40,740 nt of DNA from Lachnospiraceae bacterium (lineage in GTDB: Bacteria; Bacillota; Clostridia; Lachnospirales; Lachnospiraceae). Where the stretch lies: NCBI GenBank assembly GCA_022796475.1, contig JAAWIS010000026.1, positions 1 to 40,740 on the forward strand. The letters are read 5' to 3'. Position 1 is the first letter of the stretch, and every line of letters begins with the position of its first letter. Positions 30,785 through 40,740 of this stretch are shown here, piece by piece. The notes below the pieces were generated by a model. It worked only from the letters and a program-made list of their open reading frames with translations. It had not been told where the DNA came from and did no database searches. Both the position numbers and the translations under genes were made by a program.

Positions 30785-31152
30785 TCTCTCTCTACCTATC
30801 CATTCCCTATATTTTTTGAAGAATGGAATTTAGACCCTGAAGACATCACTAACGCATGGGACAACAAAGGTGATATCATTGTCGAAAATGATGTTTGGAT
30901 TGGTTATGAAGCAGTTTTTTAACAGGCGTTACGATTGGAAACGGTGCCATTATGGGGGCACGGGCAGTCGTTACAAAAGACGTCCCACCATATACAATCG
31001 TTGGTGGTGTTCCGGCAAAACCTATAAGAAAACGATTTGCCAAAGAAACGGTAAATACTTTACTTAAAATAAAATGGTGGGATTGGCCGATTGAACGTAT
31101 TACACAGAACATAGCCGAGATACAGGCTGGAAATATTGATTATCTAATATAA
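30785..31152 (+). pseudogene. Broken Vat-type xenobiotic acetyltransferase (hexapeptide repeat)
   Basis: The remnant encodes the C-terminal half of a left-handed beta-helix O-acetyltransferase of the Vat/CatB type. Part one reads STYPFPIF...[18 protein letters not shown] and stops at 30920. Part two, in another frame, reads [40 protein letters not shown] and continues to [14 protein letters not shown] and a normal stop at 31152. The break lies in a run of six T (30915-30920); an indel there would restore the frame. About 80-110 N-terminal residues, including the start and active-site His region, are missing, so the gene is dead even if the frameshift were a sequencing error. Intact relatives inactivate streptogramin A or similar drugs. 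Confidence 0.85.
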
Positions 31153-31760
31153 ATTTGTATTGCATAACCATATCCGTCCTCATTTATATCATGGAGAACG
31201 GACTCTATTTGAGGCACGAACTGCAAGATGATTTTTCGTACTAAATATTACAAAATATCTTGGCTACTGCAATAAGTCTACACCAAAATGACTTCCTGTC
31301 CCATATATCCATCAAGTAGAAATCTGCCTGGAAAACTCACTATTTTCATACTCTCGGAATTGTATTAGTAATGAAAATAACAGAGTGATAAGCCGGGGGG
31401 GCAGGAATTGTATTTCATTTTAACAGAAATGTCCTAAAATCGACACTTTTCAGAAAGGCAGATGCACCCTCCCTTGATTACAAAAATACAGCAGTAAAGT
31501 ATGAGATCCGCTTCTTAGAAATGAATCTCTGCCTTTTGGTTTCTAATAAATAGGAATTCTGATAAGACACTTTTTATAGCATTTATTAACTGTTATATCT
31601 TCTCTTCAAAAAGTCCGCAAACCCTTGAAAATACTAAATTTATAACAAGTGAGTTTGCCCTTAGACTTTCCCTTGTGTTATATCCTTTTCTCTCATGTTA
31701 CGAACCCTCATAAGGGCAAAAATAAGGGAAAGAAAAACCTGTAACAAATTATAACATGAA
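31153..31760. other. Gene-poor scar region
   Basis: About 600 bases without a recognisable gene on either strand; only short broken frames are seen. GCCCTT (31657-31662) and CTTTCCCTT (31666-31674) are complementary to AAGGGC (31712-31717) and AAGGGAAAG (31724-31732), in an interleaved order that could give a pseudoknot or alternative folds. The region lies between a decayed resistance gene and the accessory island, so it looks like debris of a past insertion. Confidence 0.5.
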
Positions 31761-31832
31761 ATGAACAGGACAGAAAGAACTGATTGGAATGCTTTCACAA
31801 ATTTCTCCAAAACACAGACAAGAAAGGGCTGA
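31761..31832 (+). CDS. Possible 23-residue leader peptide
   Basis: A short frame, MNRTERTDWNAFTNFSKTQ ending in RKG, stops six bases before the DUF6061 gene start. It follows the interleaved repeats at 31657-31732, an arrangement seen in leader-peptide attenuators. No good ribosome site is visible before it, so translation is uncertain; it may be debris. Confidence 0.25.
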   Translation: MNRTERTDWNAFTNFSKTQTRKG

Positions 31833-31838
31833 TAAGAT

Positions 31839-32087
31839 ATGAGATTTATTTATGCAGTGTATAATATGCTCCATAATTGTATTGATGTAACCACTTTTGA
31901 CGGATATATTTTACGCATAGACTGTGGAAAAGCGGAAGAAGGATTAAAAACAACACCATCCTCTGAGTGTGCCTTAAATGCTTTGGCAATAGATAATCCC
32001 CTTGAATATGCAAGGCTATATCTTGAGGGTGATATTCAGATATGGGTAACCGAGGAAGATTCATTAGAAGTTTGGCAATCCTCCTAG
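31839..32087 (+). CDS. DUF6061-like small protein
   Basis: The 82-residue acidic protein begins MRFIYAVYNMLHNCIDVTTFDGYILRIDC and has NPLEYARLYLEGD near its end, the pattern of DUF6061, a family of unknown role often found in mobile or accessory regions of Lachnospiraceae. An AAGGG motif lies about 11 bases before the ATG. A hairpin (32179-32208) follows about 90 bases after the stop. Its position beside a scar region fits an accessory gene. Confidence 0.7.
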   Translation: MRFIYAVYNMLHNCIDVTTFDGYILRIDCGKAEEGLKTTPSSECALNALAIDNPLEYARLYLEGDIQIWVTEEDSLEVWQSS

Positions 32088-32178
32088 AGATCCCCCAAAT
32101 TGTGTGAATTCCTATATTTCCCTTTTTGATTCAAATCCGTCTAATCTATGCATCATTGCGAGCTACAAGTTACCACCA

Positions 32179-32208
32179 AGAGCAGGGAATTACTTGAATC
32201 CCTGCTCT
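32179..32208. terminator. Hairpin between convergent genes
   Basis: A perfect 10-bp stem, AGAGCAGGGA / TCCCTGCTCT, with a 10-base loop, lies between the DUF6061 gene (plus) and the large nuclease-like gene (minus). There is no long T run on either side (plus strand continues CTTAATTGTT), so termination strength is uncertain. Confidence 0.5.
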
Positions 32209-32246
32209 CTTAATTGTTATTAGTCACATAACTGTATTACTTCAAA

Positions 32247-35200
32247 TTAATTTACTTTACGAATACGCTCCAGTGAAAGCTCTGCTTTAGAAATTATCTC
32301 AACATTCAAATTATATACCTGATTGCTAATAATTAGTTCTTCGACAATAAATAATCCAATTACAGACCATAAATCCGTATTCCCAAGCTTGAGCTCTGTA
32401 CAAACATCATGCAAATGATTTTTTACCCACTCAATACGTCTCTTATGCTTTGTTATATAGCACTTCTTTTTTCCTTTATCAACAAACATTTCATTATATT
32501 CTAAATACATCTCATATGGGTTTCTTGAAAATGGAAATGCCTTTGTTTCCGCTACATATATTCTCTTTTCAGAAACATCTACAAAAAGAACATCTATATC
32601 TCCTAGTGTTTCCCCATTTTCATTACAAATACTTTTTTTATTTATCTCTGTTCGATTAGGATATACTTGAAACTCCCCTATATCATTTAGTATTTCCACA
32701 ATACGATTATTGAACAATTTTCCTCTTTGATTACTTATCTTTCCAATCAATTTTGACATTTTTTTATCTTTTGTAGAATATGTCCCATTATAAATTAATC
32801 CCGTAACATACTCCATCATATGATACAACTGTCTGTTCCCCCATATAATTTCATCATCCCTTTGAATAATTGGCCTTCTATTAAAAGAATATGCACGATT
32901 AAACCTCCAAGGATATACATCTTCTTTTCTATACGGTTTAGGTAATTTCATAAAATCTTCTCGTGCCTTTATACTTATATCTTCTATCACTCTTGTTATT
33001 ATCTCTGCTGTTATTTTTTCAATATTTTGAGTCAAAATTTCTATTACATCTGAATATTTTTTTACATATATCTCGTTATCATCTATCTCCTCACCGATTA
33101 TAATGATTCCCGAAATAACACTTATAAATTGCTGATATGTATATCCTCTTTCAGATTTAAAAGCCTCATCCAGTTCATTTGTATAATCATCCATCTTCTG
33201 CGTGCTACTCTTTCTGAACGCAAAAGAAGAGTTATACTCCAATTGTTCCTGCCTATATACTTCCCCATATTGAAACATATCTACAAATTCCTTTTGTTTC
33301 ATCCCAACTCTATCAGATGGCAGTATTTCAATTGGCGTATCAAATATATTATAATAAAACAGGTCATTCTTATAGGCCCAGTCTATTATTGTCGAGCAAA
33401 TAGCCAATATATATTCATATTGTCCAATTCCTAATAACTTCTGCCCCTTTGGTGGTTTTGCAGCAATATATTCCATTAAGAACTTTAATGCTAAAGATGT
33501 TCTGTTGCATTCATTATAATCATTCAAGATTTCATTTTTCTTTTCTGGATAGCAACTTACATCAAAAGCATATCGTTCTCTTGCAATCATAAGTCGATAA
33601 AGTGTTTTTTCCAAATCCAAATATATTAATTCCACAACATATTGAGGATTTATTTGTTCCACTTCCTCTTGAAGCATATTGTATAATACTCCAACTATAT
33701 AGTTTGCCAATTCTCCCCGCTTTTCTTTTGGTATTACTCCATATGTCCATTTATTTGATTCCAACAATTTTTTTCCAATCAAATCCAAAAGAAAGTCCTC
33801 ATCCTCACAATGAACAGATATGTAATCAGTAAACTCAAATGGCTTAAGATATGGTTGCTTATGAAAATCAAAAGAAAACATTTTCTTTTTCATTGGATTA
33901 CTAAATATTTTTTCTATATAGCTTTCATAATCAAAATTATCACTTGCAAAATCGCACAAAGTACCTATCACAAATTTACACAATTCTTTTTCTGAAGAAT
34001 TATCCGTTTTATTGAGTCTCCAATAAAAATTTGGATTTATTACAATTTTTATATGATTATTTTCAATATCTAAATTAAGCAATTTAGATATCTCTCGTTC
34101 TTCTGGTATATTATAAAAATATTCTACAGCTTTTCCTGAAATCAAAATATCAAAATGAAATATATTATAAGAAAAAAACAATTTATTTATCAATTCTCTA
34201 CATTCTGCCAGCCAATAAGTCATAGTATCCAGAGTCGAATAATATATACTTAACTCATCAAGTGTCGTAATAAGTCCCGATGTTACCCATATAACACAAT
34301 TTTCAAAAGAGACTACCAAAGCATTCCTTTTCTCTTTGCTTCTTTCATCTTCTATATATATCTTTCTCTCATTATCACTTGCCACAACTTCTGCATATAG
34401 TCCATCAACATAAGATAAAACTCGTTTTCTATCTTCTTTTTCAAGTGCTTGCCTAATATAATCAATCGAATCACCGGGTGCTATAAATATGTTTAAATTA
34501 GCTGGATTAAGATCATCGGACATATAAAATGAATAATGATTACTCGTATATATGCTAACTGTATTTAATTCACTAAATGCCTCTAATCCATATGTATGAA
34601 GTTTTGTTTTTGCTCTAATATATCTTGGTAGAAAATTATTTTTTTCATTTATACTGAGACATTCTAGTTCCATAGGAAAAAATTTTATAGTTTTATACAC
34701 TGATAGAGATTTTTTAATTCCCAAAAGCATTCCTCTTCCGAATCCGCTTATTATTAACAAAAACATAATATTCTCAGCCCCGATTCTCACCTCTGCGAAT
34801 TTATCTCTTAAATATGAGATACGTTTTTCCAACATTGCTTGATGCCTATCATCTGGGTAATAATCATGCATTGTTGCTCCTGTATAACCTTCACCATCGT
34901 CTGCCAAGTATATAACAAGCATATATTGATTATTGTAAACAGAAACAAGCATCTCTTTGTAATATTCATTATTTATTAGTTCAAACCCCTTATTTTGTTC
35001 TTGTATCTTGTAATGTCCTAATTTAACAAGATATTCTCTGCATCTCTTCCATATAAATTCATGATACCTTCCAATAACCGCTTCCTTTATGTCGTATTTT
35101 TCAGCTAACACAATTGTCATATAAAACGCAAATGTTGGCAATACTGATATATTCAATATAATAATGGAATTATTTTTCTTATTTCTTAAAAAAGGTCTTT

Positions 35201-35918
35201 CATAAAAAGGTCTATGATTTGTTTCTCCAGCATCTTCATTCCCAAATTCACTTAAAAAGTTTTTTGTATCTGTTTCTCCAAAAAATTCATCAAAATAATC
35301 CCCATCAAGCGTAACCAAATGCGCACACTCATTTATTATTTCAGAATTTGGAACGAATAGTCTATTATTTTCTTCAATATCATTATTTGTGTTACTTGCA
35401 TTTATCCTTTGTGCGATACCATCTGACACTCCCAAAACAAACACATATAATTTATGAACACATTGTATAAAATCATCTGGAAAATCATTTTGATATTCAA
35501 AAATTATACGAATCATATTTTGAAGATTATATGCCGGAGTTTGGTCTATACCATTAAAAACCAAATAGTTTTTATGGAACATTACATTTTGAACATACAA
35601 ATTTTCATTTGGATCTATCATCATACATAAATCAGAATCATTTACTTGCGAAATAAGTTTTCTAAATTTACCAGCACTCATTATATTATCATTGATTATG
35701 CCTTCATTATATACATTAACACAAAGTAATTCTGCTATGACAGCATCCAATAAAATAGATTTATTTTGATTTACAGGCAGTAAATTAAGACCTGCTATTC
35801 GGGCTATGATATCATATAAATCATATTTTTTCATTTCTTTAACAATGTTATCAAATTTTTTTGTTGGTTTTTCATTCTCAATATTAAAATCAAATTCTTC
35901 TAAATCCCTAAAATCCAT
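32247..35918 (-). CDS. Large AT-rich protein with C-terminal PD-(D/E)XK nuclease-like motif
   Basis: I do not recognise this 1223-residue protein as a whole. No signal peptide, membrane helix or P-loop is visible; it is rich in Asn, Ile, Tyr and Lys, reflecting low GC. The last 150 residues fit a PD-(D/E)XK nuclease: Glu1075 in RIVEIL, Asp1107 and Asp1109 in LGDIDVLF, and E1124-T-K1126 in YVAETKAF, each at the end of a predicted strand or helix. The N-terminal 1050 residues are probably helical with mixed alpha/beta segments and no clear repeat. The ATG at 35918 is six bases after GGGAG; the longer frame from 35996 crosses a hairpin. It lies 142 bases downstream of a type III-like restriction gene in the same direction, which suggests anti-phage or DNA-damage work. 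The nuclease reading is inference from motif spacing. Confidence 0.7.
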   Translation of the reverse strand: MDFRDLEEFDFNIENEKPTKKFDNIVKEMKKYDLYDIIARIAGLNLLPVNQNKSILLDAVIAELLCVNVYNEGIINDNIMSAGKFRKLISQVNDSDLCMMIDPNENLYVQNVMFHKNYLVFNGIDQTPAYNLQNMIRIIFEYQNDFPDDFIQCVHKLYVFVLGVSDGIAQRINASNTNNDIEENNRLFVPNSEIINECAHLVTLDGDYFDEFFGETDTKNFLSEFGNEDAGETNHRPFYERPFLRNKKNNSIIILNISVLPTFAFYMTIVLAEKYDIKEAVIGRYHEFIWKRCREYLVKLGHYKIQEQNKGFELINNEYYKEMLVSVYNNQYMLVIYLADDGEGYTGATMHDYYPDDRHQAMLEKRISYLRDKFAEVRIGAENIMFLLIISGFGRGMLLGIKKSLSVYKTIKFFPMELECLSINEKNNFLPRYIRAKTKLHTYGLEAFSELNTVSIYTSNHYSFYMSDDLNPANLNIFIAPGDSIDYIRQALEKEDRKRVLSYVDGLYAEVVASDNERKIYIEDERSKEKRNALVVSFENCVIWVTSGLITTLDELSIYYSTLDTMTYWLAECRELINKLFFSYNIFHFDILISGKAVEYFYNIPEEREISKLLNLDIENNHIKIVINPNFYWRLNKTDNSSEKELCKFVIGTLCDFASDNFDYESYIEKIFSNPMKKKMFSFDFHKQPYLKPFEFTDYISVHCEDEDFLLDLIGKKLLESNKWTYGVIPKEKRGELANYIVGVLYNMLQEEVEQINPQYVVELIYLDLEKTLYRLMIARERYAFDVSCYPEKKNEILNDYNECNRTSLALKFLMEYIAAKPPKGQKLLGIGQYEYILAICSTIIDWAYKNDLFYYNIFDTPIEILPSDRVGMKQKEFVDMFQYGEVYRQEQLEYNSSFAFRKSSTQKMDDYTNELDEAFKSERGYTYQQFISVISGIIIIGEEIDDNEIYVKKYSDVIEILTQNIEKITAEIITRVIEDISIKAREDFMKLPKPYRKEDVYPWRFNRAYSFNRRPIIQRDDEIIWGNRQLYHMMEYVTGLIYNGTYSTKDKKMSKLIGKISNQRGKLFNNRIVEILNDIGEFQVYPNRTEINKKSICNENGETLGDIDVLFVDVSEKRIYVAETKAFPFSRNPYEMYLEYNEMFVDKGKKKCYITKHKRRIEWVKNHLHDVCTELKLGNTDLWSVIGLFIVEELIISNQVYNLNVEIISKAELSLERIRKVN

Positions 35919-35974
35919 AGTAATCTCCCATTCTTGCCAAAGTCTGCGAATTTGGGCGTAAGCACAAATTTGCC

Positions 35975-35998
35975 CTGTGAAAAATTTATTTTTCACAG
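35975..35998. terminator. Hairpin between the restriction gene and the large nuclease-like gene
   Basis: A perfect 10-bp stem, CTGTGAAAAA / TTTTTCACAG, with a TTTA loop. On the minus strand it follows the restriction gene and precedes the large gene, so it could partly terminate the first transcript or stabilise the leader of the second. A second weaker GGGC/GCCC hairpin follows at about 35954-35974. Confidence 0.45.
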
Positions 35999-36060
35999 TA
36001 ATATCTCCAAATTATTCCCTAATGATTTGTGCAAATATGATATATACACAATGCAATCTA

Positions 36061-38892
36061 CTATTCAAAAAATCCATCTGTTTCAAAAATGTGATCAATC
36101 TCATCCGTATTTATCGCTTTTAATACCTTTTGCCTGATACTTCCATGTGACATATCAAGCCGTTTAAACTTATCTTTGCCAGATGCATCTTTCTCACGCC
36201 GGATTAATTGAACACGTCCTATTTTGGGTTCTTCCTCTGCATATTTAGCCAATGCCTTGGCTTTCCCAAGATTGTCTTTGTAATCAGGGTTATGAGGTTC
36301 TAATATATCCATAACATAACCCAGAACAGAATCTTTTCTGACAATAATAAAGTCCGGATATGCAGCCTTTGTTTCGCCTTTCATCTCATAAGGCATACAC
36401 ATAGACCATTTTTCTCTAGGCGGATTCCGCAACCAGCAAACAAAATCAGAACGTCTTGATTCTTCGTCTATTAATCCGCTTTCCCAACCATTTAATTTTA
36501 TTTGTGCCATTCCGTCCGCATATGCAAATAAGTGATTATCATATTTTTTACCAGTTAAATCTATCTTCACACTGACTGTTTCCGGCAGCGTGAAATTGTG
36601 TCTGCTGACAATATCGCTGTTTGCCACGATATCATCATATTGTTTCCTGCATTTTTCAGACTTCCCGACAACATAACGACGATACTTATCATTCAATTCA
36701 TAAAATTTCTTTTCTGCATATCTGTTCAAATTTGCAATACAGTTATCATCTGCGGCAAATAAGATACAGTCAATTTTATACGCATTCACATCCATGATAT
36801 CCAAGTAACGCCGACCATATAAGTTACAAAAACCATAATTACCGATTCGCGCATCAGCTGCCCTTAATTGACGGTCAATATCCGAATCAGAAATTGCCGT
36901 AAAATTTAGCTGGCCATAATTTCTAATAGACTGCCCGAAAACATCAAACACATCTACAAGCAGCTTAAATTCAAGCACTTTGGCAGAAAGTGCTTCATAT
37001 TCTCCTGAATGGTGCAGTTCATCTACATATTCTCGCATCATATTAAGAATATCTTCCTCAACCTCGTCCTTTGCGCCTTGATATATCATGTTATATGTCA
37101 GCAAGCCTGTAAGATCAAGCAAAGATTTTAAATAGCTGTGAATTTTAGCTGTTTTTACAACATAGGTCAAAAAACCTTGGTCATTAATAAATTTTGTGAT
37201 TCCCTCGTGGTCAATTTCAGGCAAAAGTGAAAGCTGTTCACCCTCTACAATCTGCACTTCTGCCTCCATATCTGTATTCACTGGAACAGAAATAACCGGA
37301 AGTGGCTCGCTTTGCAGATATGGTTGCTGCAATGGAAACAAATTATCATTCTCCGTTCCTCGTTCCACACTATCTATATCTTCTAATTTACTTTTCTGCT
37401 GATTATCAGGCTCTATTTGGCTCTGACCTAAAACTGCGTTATCGGGCATAAATTCTTCCAAGCCAATTTGTCCCGGAATGTGTGCTTTTTCTTTTCTATG
37501 CTGTGTCGTATGAATCGTCCAAGGTACATATACAACCTCCTCAAGCGATTCACTATCAACAACTGTTGGAATATCTTCACCCTCTGAATTTTGCAATTCT
37601 TTTACAACATCTTCTACTGTATATGCGTTGAAATATGGCAGATATAATCGGACATCATTTAAATAGTCATCTACAAGGATATGACTTTGCAAAGGGGTTC
37701 TGACCATTCTCCCTAATAACTGGGCAATATATGTAGCATCCTCTGCATGGCGAAATGACATCATTGTTTCAGCTCTCGGGCAATCCCAGCCTGTAGAAAG
37801 ATTTTCTTTAAACAATACTACTTTTATCCGTCTGTCATCTGTAATTTCAGACGGTTCAATATGTGGCACATTCAAACCATTGACCAAAAGCGTGGCTGTC
37901 GAACCAAATGTATGTACCACCTCATTTTCCTTGAAAGTCACTCCTATACGTTCCTCAATTTTAGCAATTACGTCATCAAGATTTGTGTTGGAAATCAATT
38001 TTCCACTGCCAGCCTGAACCTGTATTACGAAAACCGGATTGACCTGCGCATAATGCTGTTCGTAACAATATTGGCGCCAATGATCGCATTTGCTTTTCCA
38101 TTCATCAGTAGCAGCCTGCAACACTGCCATATCATTATTTTTCGCCGGATCATCAGGATATGTAATCAAAATACGGTCTTTCAGTAATCCTGATGCCCGA
38201 ACGTCATTTGGTGTAATAATAACCCTCTGCAAGGTTGAATTGGTATCTCCTACAAGCTGGTTAAATCTTGCAGAAGTTGCACTCATCCCTATAACTAATG
38301 GTATTGGAGAAAGTTTATGCGGAACACTTCCCTTGATAAATCTTTGCATAATTGATGTTGCTGTTCCTGCCGCTGTCCCCTGCATTCCCCTATGTGCTTC
38401 ATCAATGATAAAATACAGTCTGTCTGCTTTTTTCTTCGCCGTATTCTCTAATGTTTCCCAAATGGTATACTGTCGGTTATCCGAATGTTTTCCAAGATTC
38501 CCTGCTTTCCCTAATTTCTGAGTATTCAAAAAATAGATATGCCCATCCTGCAATTCTTCCATATCAAAAGAGTCATCCTCAATGACAACGCATTGCCCGA
38601 ATTTAATGCGGTCCGCTTTTAAATCTATCTTCTGCTTGGACTGTTCATTTAAAGCTGGAGAATCTGAAAGCCAAACAAATATTGCCTCTGGCTGATCCGC
38701 ATAGTTTTCCGTTCCAAAATAAATATCTTCTATCAAGGCTGCCATAATAATCGTCTTACCTGCACCTGTTGGAGCCTGTAGGGAAATCACTTGGGGAATA
38801 TGCGTGTTTTGATACATCCCAAGCGCTGCCGCAGTCCTTGTCCTAAGTTCATAAACAGCTTTCTTTTGAAATGGGAATAATTCTACTTTCAT
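36061..38892 (-). CDS. Type III-like restriction enzyme Res subunit (SF2 helicase with C-terminal nuclease region)
   Basis: The 943-residue protein has superfamily 2 helicase motifs: Walker A APTGAGKT (40-47), DEAH (164-167), SAT (204-206), GWDCPRAE near 368 and QLLGRMVR (391-398). In type III systems Res translocates on DNA and cuts it when bound to the methyltransferase Mod. A linker of low complexity (about 440-545) precedes a C-terminal region with YPDFIIVRK and GYVMDILEPHN (PD at 846-847, D862, E865). The usual second motif (D/E)xK is not seen there; the reading DILEPH appears instead. The start overlaps the mod stop by four bases (ATGA), with GGGGAG upstream. The reading frame is intact even though mod is broken, so without another Mod it should be inactive. 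Confidence 0.88.
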   Translation of the reverse strand: MKVELFPFQKKAVYELRTRTAAALGMYQNTHIPQVISLQAPTGAGKTIIMAALIEDIYFGTENYADQPEAIFVWLSDSPALNEQSKQKIDLKADRIKFGQCVVIEDDSFDMEELQDGHIYFLNTQKLGKAGNLGKHSDNRQYTIWETLENTAKKKADRLYFIIDEAHRGMQGTAAGTATSIMQRFIKGSVPHKLSPIPLVIGMSATSARFNQLVGDTNSTLQRVIITPNDVRASGLLKDRILITYPDDPAKNNDMAVLQAATDEWKSKCDHWRQYCYEQHYAQVNPVFVIQVQAGSGKLISNTNLDDVIAKIEERIGVTFKENEVVHTFGSTATLLVNGLNVPHIEPSEITDDRRIKVVLFKENLSTGWDCPRAETMMSFRHAEDATYIAQLLGRMVRTPLQSHILVDDYLNDVRLYLPYFNAYTVEDVVKELQNSEGEDIPTVVDSESLEEVVYVPWTIHTTQHRKEKAHIPGQIGLEEFMPDNAVLGQSQIEPDNQQKSKLEDIDSVERGTENDNLFPLQQPYLQSEPLPVISVPVNTDMEAEVQIVEGEQLSLLPEIDHEGITKFINDQGFLTYVVKTAKIHSYLKSLLDLTGLLTYNMIYQGAKDEVEEDILNMMREYVDELHHSGEYEALSAKVLEFKLLVDVFDVFGQSIRNYGQLNFTAISDSDIDRQLRAADARIGNYGFCNLYGRRYLDIMDVNAYKIDCILFAADDNCIANLNRYAEKKFYELNDKYRRYVVGKSEKCRKQYDDIVANSDIVSRHNFTLPETVSVKIDLTGKKYDNHLFAYADGMAQIKLNGWESGLIDEESRRSDFVCWLRNPPREKWSMCMPYEMKGETKAAYPDFIIVRKDSVLGYVMDILEPHNPDYKDNLGKAKALAKYAEEEPKIGRVQLIRREKDASGKDKFKRLDMSHGSIRQKVLKAINTDEIDHIFETDGFFE

Positions 38893-40740
38893 GTCTGCTT
38901 TCTCCCCTGGTTAATTCTGAAATTGTCAAGATAATCCCGATATAGCTGATAAGTATTTTCTACAGCAAGATTTTGTATCATAGTACGATATCCTGCTTCA
39001 TAATCCGTTACAATAAAAACGGTTTCAATGTTAGAATCCTGATTCACTTTTTCTTCAAATTCCGAGAAATAATTTTCATCTAACAATACTGCAAACTTAT
39101 TTTCTGATAAAATCATCATTGTTGGGAGCTGTTCTGTATCAAGTGACGGACAAGACCCTATTGCCCCTGCTTTCATCCAAATTACCGGCAAAAGTTCCCG
39201 AAACTGTCTGCCTAAAGATACTGTCGTTTTATCTAAAAAACCAAGTTTAAAAAATACTGCGTTCGTTTTAAATCCTTCTGACATTGGCTGATTACTTCCA
39301 ATGTAGTTCCCTTTTAGGGGACTTCCATTAATGTCATGTCCTTCTATGCTGCATATAGTCCGCGGCCATGTAACATATCGCGCTATTCCAAGTTTGTCCC
39401 ATTCATCATCGCCAGGATGTAAGCCTTTTTCTGAAAGAATTTTAGCTTCGTCTACCGACACTTCATTATTTGTCACCATAATGCAGCGACGCTGTCCATT
39501 ATCTTCTGCATTTAGTAGGTTGACAGCGTGTAAAGTCGTACCAGAGCCAGCAAAAAAGTCAATGATAAGGGCATTAGGTTTATCTGATACGAAAAATTTC
39601 AATGTATCTTTTACTGCATAAATGGACTTCGGAAAGGAAAAACGCCTATCATAAAATACACCATTAAGATAAGTAGTTCCATACTCACTGGCAGAATGTG
39701 TTTTTTATTCCAAATTGTCATTGGGCGGACATCCTTATCTTCAGTTGATTTTAATTCTATGATATATGCTCCATCATCATCCTGCCCTATTACATTATAG
39801 AGTCCATTTTTAAAGTTCCTTTCCTGACTTTCGGAAAGATAATAACCAGTACGTTTTTTTCCATCCCACTTGCCAAAACTCAAAAAATGCTGCCTATGTT
39901 TTTCCATTAAAGTCGAAGGCTGTAAATTCCAAGTTAATTCTGTTCCATTAGCACCAATAGGCCACATAGCTACGACACCTTCTGGCGGAATATAAGAATT
40001 TCTATTCTCTAAACTATCAAGAACAGGACCATGCCCTATAAATTTTCCTGATTTTTTTTCAAATAACAATGGATAAAACAAATTTGGTCTGTCTGTTCGC
40101 TTTCCATGATTACTCGCCTGTCTTAACAATGCCCTTAGTCGTACACTTTTATCTTCATATAACTTTTCACTATTGCTATTATCCATGCTTTCTCTCAACA
40201 TATCAGTTCCATTAGAAACAATAGCTGCCCTTCCCAAATAGACAAAAAATATGTATTCCTCGCATCTTGAAAATTCATTGTCTCGCCTATTGCCTTTTGG
40301 ATTTATTACCGAAGTAATCATTTGCATTCTTGCTTCTGGAAACAACTCCTCCAACAAGCACCCCAAATGCAAATATTCCTTTTCATCAATCGTCACAATC
40401 AGTACAGAGTCTTTTGGATTCAAAAGCCGTTTCGTTTCTGCATCATACTCAACCACTTACTATGGCGGTAACTGTCATTTCCATCCACATAATCATTGTT
40501 GTACTTCCAATCTTTTGCACCTGTATTATATGGCGGATCAATATAAATACAATCTACCTTTCCTGCATAAAGATATTCGAGCAGTTGCAGCGCATGATAA
40601 TTATCCGCTTCAATCAATGTATGCCATAAATTACTGTCCGGCGCATTGCACACGCTATCTATCTGTTTCAAGTATGGATAGATTGGCTCTCCAAATTTTG
40701 CAACTACCACTAAGTCAGCAATGTTCCATTCTGCCTGCTC
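38889..40740 (-). pseudogene. Type III-like DNA adenine methyltransferase Mod, broken by two frameshifts, partial at window edge
   Basis: Three minus-strand pieces make up one beta-class N6-adenine methyltransferase. Piece one (40420-40740, open at the edge) has the catalytic DPPYNTG and ends SKWLSMMQKR. Piece two (39611-40456) resumes at KRLLNPKDSVLIVTIDEKE and includes the target recognition region. Piece three (38889-39602) has the AdoMet-binding motif IIDFFAGSGTTLHAV. Between pieces one and two, micro-repeats AAACG abut near 40428-40437 and about 13 bases seem to be lost. Between two and three, frame is lost in a run of six A (39701-39706, T on the plus strand); seven A would restore TIWNKKTHSASEYG. 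The family needs all three parts for DNA methylation, so the gene is predicted inactive. It is coupled to the intact Res gene by an ATGA overlap. Confidence 0.88.

Follow-up and report, generated by a model that had tools for sequence, protein, structure and literature searches.

A distant Upx homologue in a Lachnospiraceae contig

We analyzed a 40,740-nucleotide contig from Lachnospiraceae bacterium (JAAWIS010000026.1, assembly GCA_022796475.1; hereafter the window) and find that a 1223-residue protein encoded on its minus strand is probably a distant defence protein of the Upx type, acting as a stand-alone system with a C-terminal PD-(D/E)XK nuclease and an N-terminal sensing part. We put the probability of this reading at roughly 0.77. 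An earlier note, made from the DNA letters only, had called the protein unrecognised and stated that about 1050 N-terminal residues match nothing that it recognised. Both statements have to be given up, as the comparisons described below make it well supported, at the level of sequence, that the window protein is remotely homologous, along its whole length, to Upx. Upx is a listed anti-phage protein, reportedly first described by Gao et al. in Science in 2020.

Profile searches with the window protein returned Upx from both PADLOC (E = 6.5e-25, best-matching stretch at residues 903-1183) and NCBIfam (E = 5.2e-25, residues 886-1178), and Upx is the only system that the PADLOC scan lists for it. 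A phmmer search of PDB chains gave one match, 9wuf (7.1e-9, chiefly residues 908-1183), and when a profile of five proteins from the clade of the window protein was searched against PDB sequences up to E = 1, the sole match was again 9wuf (1.4e-70). This entry, released 2026-02-11, is titled 'Cryo-EM structure of Upx' in the structure library, and its letters agree, in the stretch compared by eye, with those of the Salmonella plasmid protein P0020.

Homology over the whole length can be recognised because bridging relatives, from Deinococcus plasmids, from the phylum of the window and from a Bosea plasmid, connect the two sides of the family. Two Deinococcus plasmid proteins match the window protein by tblastn (1e-51 and 8e-54), and the Bosea plasmid protein matches 9wuf across 25-1213 (3.8e-45). 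When alignment A3 (P0016, P0002, P0009 and P0008) was compared by hhalign with alignment A2 (seven Upx-side proteins), the two matched with an E-value of 1.6e-83 across 1160 columns. Residues 1-880 alone, used as a BLAST query with the database size set to 1e8, matched P0016, P0009, P0008 and P0015 (4.1e-40 to 2.1e-6). Likewise, a hidden Markov model (HMM) made from the N-terminal parts of three relatives matched the N-terminal part of the window protein at 9.3e-65, that of P0015 at 3.3e-40 and that of P0010 at 4.7e-16, and matched none of 25 controls. No Pfam family reached its cut-off with the window protein (three sub-threshold matches, best E = 0.085), and PHROGs yielded no match up to E = 1. 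The earlier note had also reported that these N-terminal residues contain no ATPase motif, and this agrees with our results for the protein: a simple motif scan found no Walker A, and Pfam gave no ATPase match.

A tree of 16 proteins, with its root drawn at the midpoint and with the fragments L018, L019 and L021 left out of both the alignment and the tree, groups the window protein with its 99% copy from Lachnospiraceae bacterium 3-1 and with L033, L020, L031, L004 and L003. The other group (support 100/99) contains canonical Upx (L007 and L027) together with L005, L006, L017, L022, L023 and L024, and the position of L034, which sits on a long branch, is unsure. This arrangement suggests that the window protein is a distant member of the family, belonging to a deeply separate Upx branch.

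Conserved residues and predicted fold of the C-terminal part

The earlier note had proposed a nuclease core between residues 1075 and 1126, and D1107, D1109, E1124, T1125, K1126 and E1075 all lie at the positions that it claimed. We counted active-site residues in the 15 aligned proteins whose sequence extends that far; L031, which is without its C-terminal end, was not counted. The proposed core stands as far as D1109, E1124 and K1126, which are invariant (Table 1), and the predicted PD-(D/E)XK fold are concerned. It does not stand for E1075: only 5 of the 15 proteins have E at this position, two of them being the window protein and its near-copy, so that E1075 is unlikely to be catalytic and was rejected as a catalytic residue. 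We also rejected the motif as stand-alone evidence. The pattern G[DE]xD-x(12-18)-[DE]xK is present in 13 of 300 shuffled versions of the protein, and the same pattern with an added preceding E at 25-60 residues was seen in 17 of 300 other shuffles. The case for a putative nuclease is made by homology rather than by the motif. Structure prediction, as the earlier note had proposed and here run on the C-terminal part, gave a PD-(D/E)XK core whose best structural match is the defence protein 9wuf.

Outside the active site, D102, G123, R1008 and P1016 show no substitution in any aligned protein long enough to include them, on either side of the family; P103 has one exception and W1004 has two. The conservation profile was made with L002, L031 and L034 left out. 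Columns common to both family sides mark N-terminal and linking regions that are worth testing.

Distribution and genomic neighbours of relatives

In protein searches the genome of the window was the sole match among 98 relatives and among 392 genomes of the order, and a DNA search of 11 genomes of the genus with the res-nuclease stretch also matched this genome alone. With the clade profile, matches came from 4 of the 391 class-level genomes and from 7 of the 398 phylum-level genomes; both counts include the own genome, and the second also includes Upx-side proteins. Six of 398 phylum-level genomes (own included) matched the NCBI Upx profile, none of them above its cut-off. In a scan of public genome contigs a single additional copy, L002, came to light (99% identity), and Upx-like genes are carried on plasmids in Deinococcus and Bosea. 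According to passages in two papers, Upx is found within integrative elements or genomic islands (PMC12629846, PMC12824646). No relative was found by tblastn of phage records, by a single-sequence scan of viral contigs or by searching viral contigs with clade alignment A3; searched with alignments A1 and A2, the viral contigs gave 3 and 5 loci, nearest to Upx.

The survey of neighbours covered 11 loci in which the genes are whole or nearly so (L002, L003, L004, L005, L017, L023, L024, L027, L033, L034 and L035), with the partial-gene loci L006, L007, L018, L019, L021, L022 and L031 left out of the count; neighbours in L003, L027 and L034 were not among the profile scans. Neighbours with defence-library matches occur in 6 of the 11 loci, a count of chosen neighbours that comes without a background rate. 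These are a type III Mod in L002; an Avs2-like NACHT protein (316 bits) in L004 (L004:3866-7711, a Deinococcus plasmid); a HamB-like helicase (118.7 bits) plus a weak TIR match in L005; GmrSD_N (Pfam) and PDC-M55C in L017; at L033:12993-16470, upstream of the Upx-like gene and on its strand, a Fic gene matching PDC-S72 together with an AAA-TOPRIM gene that is OLD/GajA-like; and in L024 an AAA protein that matches REase_II weakly (51.9 bits). The tested neighbours of L023 (two) and L035 (one) had no match in the defence-library scan. Neighbour sets vary among the loci, whose flanks were scanned in part, and the survey proposed in the earlier note has turned up varied defence genes beside several relatives.

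Two further observations concern these flanks. A small protein at L023:3202-3855, beside the Upx of a viral contig, has, as judged by eye, its own GDID...EVK motif and is possibly a second nuclease; it is without a defence-library match. At L002:1917-4746, a SLFN_AlbA_2 gene stands immediately before mod and is preceded by a gene that by eye resembles a Mob relaxase.

The gene and the adjoining type III restriction locus

The 1223-residue frame runs from 35918 to 32247 without an internal stop, and the plus strand at these positions is full of stops. A G-rich stretch lies a few bases 5' of each candidate start, the ATG and an in-frame GTG. The earlier note was right that the gene is more AT-rich than its neighbours: its G+C content is 0.291, against 0.407 for the whole window and 0.361-0.463 for the 27 other frames measured. 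It was also right in placing the gene downstream of a type III-like Res gene, which carries ResIII and DEAD matches and lies on the same strand, 142 bases upstream. Scans for promoters (43 found, 43.7 expected) and terminators (3 found, 4.0 expected) were at chance level, and operon structure is therefore judged from spacing alone. At 30800-31150, what by eye look like the remains of an acetyltransferase gene separate the nuclease cassette from a MATE transporter gene.

Table 1. Features of the nuclease gene, its product and the adjoining locus (window coordinates)
Feature	Position	Strand	Basis
Upx-like gene, 1223 residues (ATG 35918, stop 32247-32249)	32247..35918	minus	frame and Upx homology
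Residues 1-880, N-terminal and middle region, Upx-homologous, putative sensing/clamping part	33279..35918	minus	without Pfam domain or ATPase motif
Modelled PD-(D/E)XK nuclease core, residues about 1052-1200	32319..32765	minus	alignment, predicted model
D1107-I-D1109; D1109 invariant (15/15), D1107 replaced by E in one of 15	32592..32600	minus	aligned proteins
E1124-T-K1126; E and K kept in 15/15 aligned proteins	32541..32549	minus	alignment
GGGAG, possibly ribosome-binding, six bases 5' of ATG	35925..35929	minus	sequence reading
Alternative in-frame GTG start (+26, giving 1249 residues)	35994..35996	minus	frame reading
Res-like type III restriction subunit of 943 residues, adjoining gene separate from the nuclease	36061..38892	minus	profile matches
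Type III methyltransferase (Mod), three frames, cut by contig end	38889..40740	minus	profiles, frames

The Mod frames of the window are 40740-40432, 40435-39704 and 39701-38892, a state that may be biological or an assembly fault; in L002, Mod is one open frame of 735 residues. Positions 31548-39263 of the window, with Res and the nuclease gene, are 98.7% identical to L002, while identity in the middle of Mod falls to 33% over 255 columns. Such divergence beside near-identical Res and nuclease genes is interesting in that it may reflect a shuffled cassette. Type III genes were recognised in L002 alone among the 11 loci of relatives, subject to the three loci outside the profile scans. The window protein itself has no Mod or Res domain at Pfam cut-offs or in PADLOC and is not classed as a type III subunit.

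Proposed function and alternatives

As a distant Upx-type protein, the window protein would be one long chain with a metal-dependent nuclease formed by its C-terminal PD-(D/E)XK domain, presumably cutting DNA by means of metal ions held at D1109, E1124 and K1126. The approximately 1000 N-terminal residues would recognise or clamp the target, keeping the nuclease off until phage is present, and would release or position it upon detecting a phage product or DNA form. The protein would work without an ATPase of its own and probably without a fixed partner, and its gene would travel between genomes with other defence genes, having here been joined to a type III restriction cassette. We infer the anti-phage action of the window protein, as well as its cleavage of DNA and the sensing role of its N-terminal part. 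The interpretation in the earlier note is partly supported: its nuclease core and its suggestion of a single-protein anti-phage nuclease are backed by homology to Upx, by the predicted C-terminal fold and by the defence neighbours of several relatives. A table in a Pseudomonas aeruginosa paper lists Upx under nucleic acid degradation, as 'experimentally validated or predicted' (PMC10855318). A literature search that covered few subscription papers and no preprints turned up no publication on how Upx works or on its structure.

Several results weigh against this reading. The identity of the window protein to canonical Upx is 16-17%, so that trigger and target may differ. Its score against the NCBI Upx equivalog NF042954 is 86.9 bits, below the cut-off of 1900, and it is therefore filed as a distant superfamily member and not as an Upx equivalog. 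BLAST of residues 1-880 left three of seven relatives unmatched (P0010, P0019 and P0020), among them the canonical Salmonella protein, which is represented by its later part only. In the tree, support for the group of the window protein is 93/93, below the 95 starred by the tree tool, which also warns of uneven composition and long branches; the root is a midpoint root. The predicted model spans the C-terminal part only, rather than the N-terminal part or the whole protein, and is of moderate quality (mean predicted local distance difference test score 62.6, predicted template-modelling score 0.51). Its superposition on 9wuf is loose, with a root-mean-square deviation of 11.5 over 202 residues and a template-modelling score of 0.38 by the model's length. 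L034 deviates at G1066, F1069, H1158 and further columns. Finally, two matches from the phylum search, L039 and L040, each contain one stop codon, and some copies may thus be decayed.

An abortive mode of action, in which phage triggers the nuclease to destroy host DNA (or RNA) and thereby stop the cell instead of clearing the phage, overlaps the Upx-type reading. PD-(D/E)XK domains serve as such effectors in other defence systems, and in the VIA-align comparison the cyclic-nucleotide-activated nucleases Cdn1, Can2 and Card1 reach middling Z-scores (6.8, 6.0 and 5.7). However, Pfam shows no second-messenger domain in the window protein, and we regard this mode as possible but rather unlikely.

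It is more doubtful still that the protein is an accessory of the type III locus that acts jointly with Mod and Res, for instance as a nuclease for DNA with or without the Mod mark. The strand and order shared with Res, and the preservation of Res and the nuclease together in L002 while the middle of Mod diverged, would be consistent with such a role, which the earlier note had raised. However, the role is not supported by the loci of relatives, where, within the flanks scanned, type III genes were recognised only in near-identical L002. In addition, the window Mod is in three frames whereas the nuclease gene is open throughout, and canonical Upx is a one-gene system. A three-gene form of this idea seems to us very unlikely: the Upx-like nuclease would be inherited with Mod and Res as one defence unit and would be licensed, like the restriction system, by the presence or absence of the type III mark. 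If this were true, Mod would be free to change the part responsible for recognition without any change in Res or the nuclease. A housekeeping nuclease of DNA repair or recombination, with no link to phage, is most improbable, as the Hjc, EndoMS and RecB nuclease domains among the structural rows are set against a patchy distribution in genus, order and phylum, plasmid carriage in Deinococcus and Bosea, the low G+C of the gene and the defence neighbours of relatives.

Upx is already known but poorly understood, and the window protein is otherwise an ordinary distant member. Its placement would extend Upx to a deep group, found in the phylum of the window and on Deinococcus plasmids, that the curated profile hardly catches.

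Comparison with known systems

McrC, the nuclease subunit of McrBC, works with the GTPase McrB; sequence searches of PDB chains did not find it. Two Upx-like proteins (L031:2-3004 and L034:6165-9893) show a variant architecture with an N-terminal SEC-C motif (PF02810). Like the window protein they match the clade profile, L031 over most of its length (it is cut at the contig end) and L034 chiefly over its last 600 residues, but Pfam found no SEC-C motif in the window protein. The Upx-like proteins of two Deinococcus plasmids (L003 and L004) and of the phylum of the window (L020 and L033) fall in the same tree group as the window protein, at 19-29% identity, and differ in having other neighbours where these were recognised, such as the Avs2-like NACHT protein (L004) and the OLD/GajA-like and Fic genes (L033). 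Canonical Upx (NF042954, PADLOC PDLC02221, PDB 9wuf) differs from the window protein by the low identity and profile score given above, by its separate tree group and by the type III locus that adjoins the window gene. It is like the window protein in length, in alignment over nearly the whole chain, in a mobile or defence setting and in having a C-terminal PD-(D/E)XK domain, where D, E and K are common to both; the window protein has no ATPase motif that we could find.
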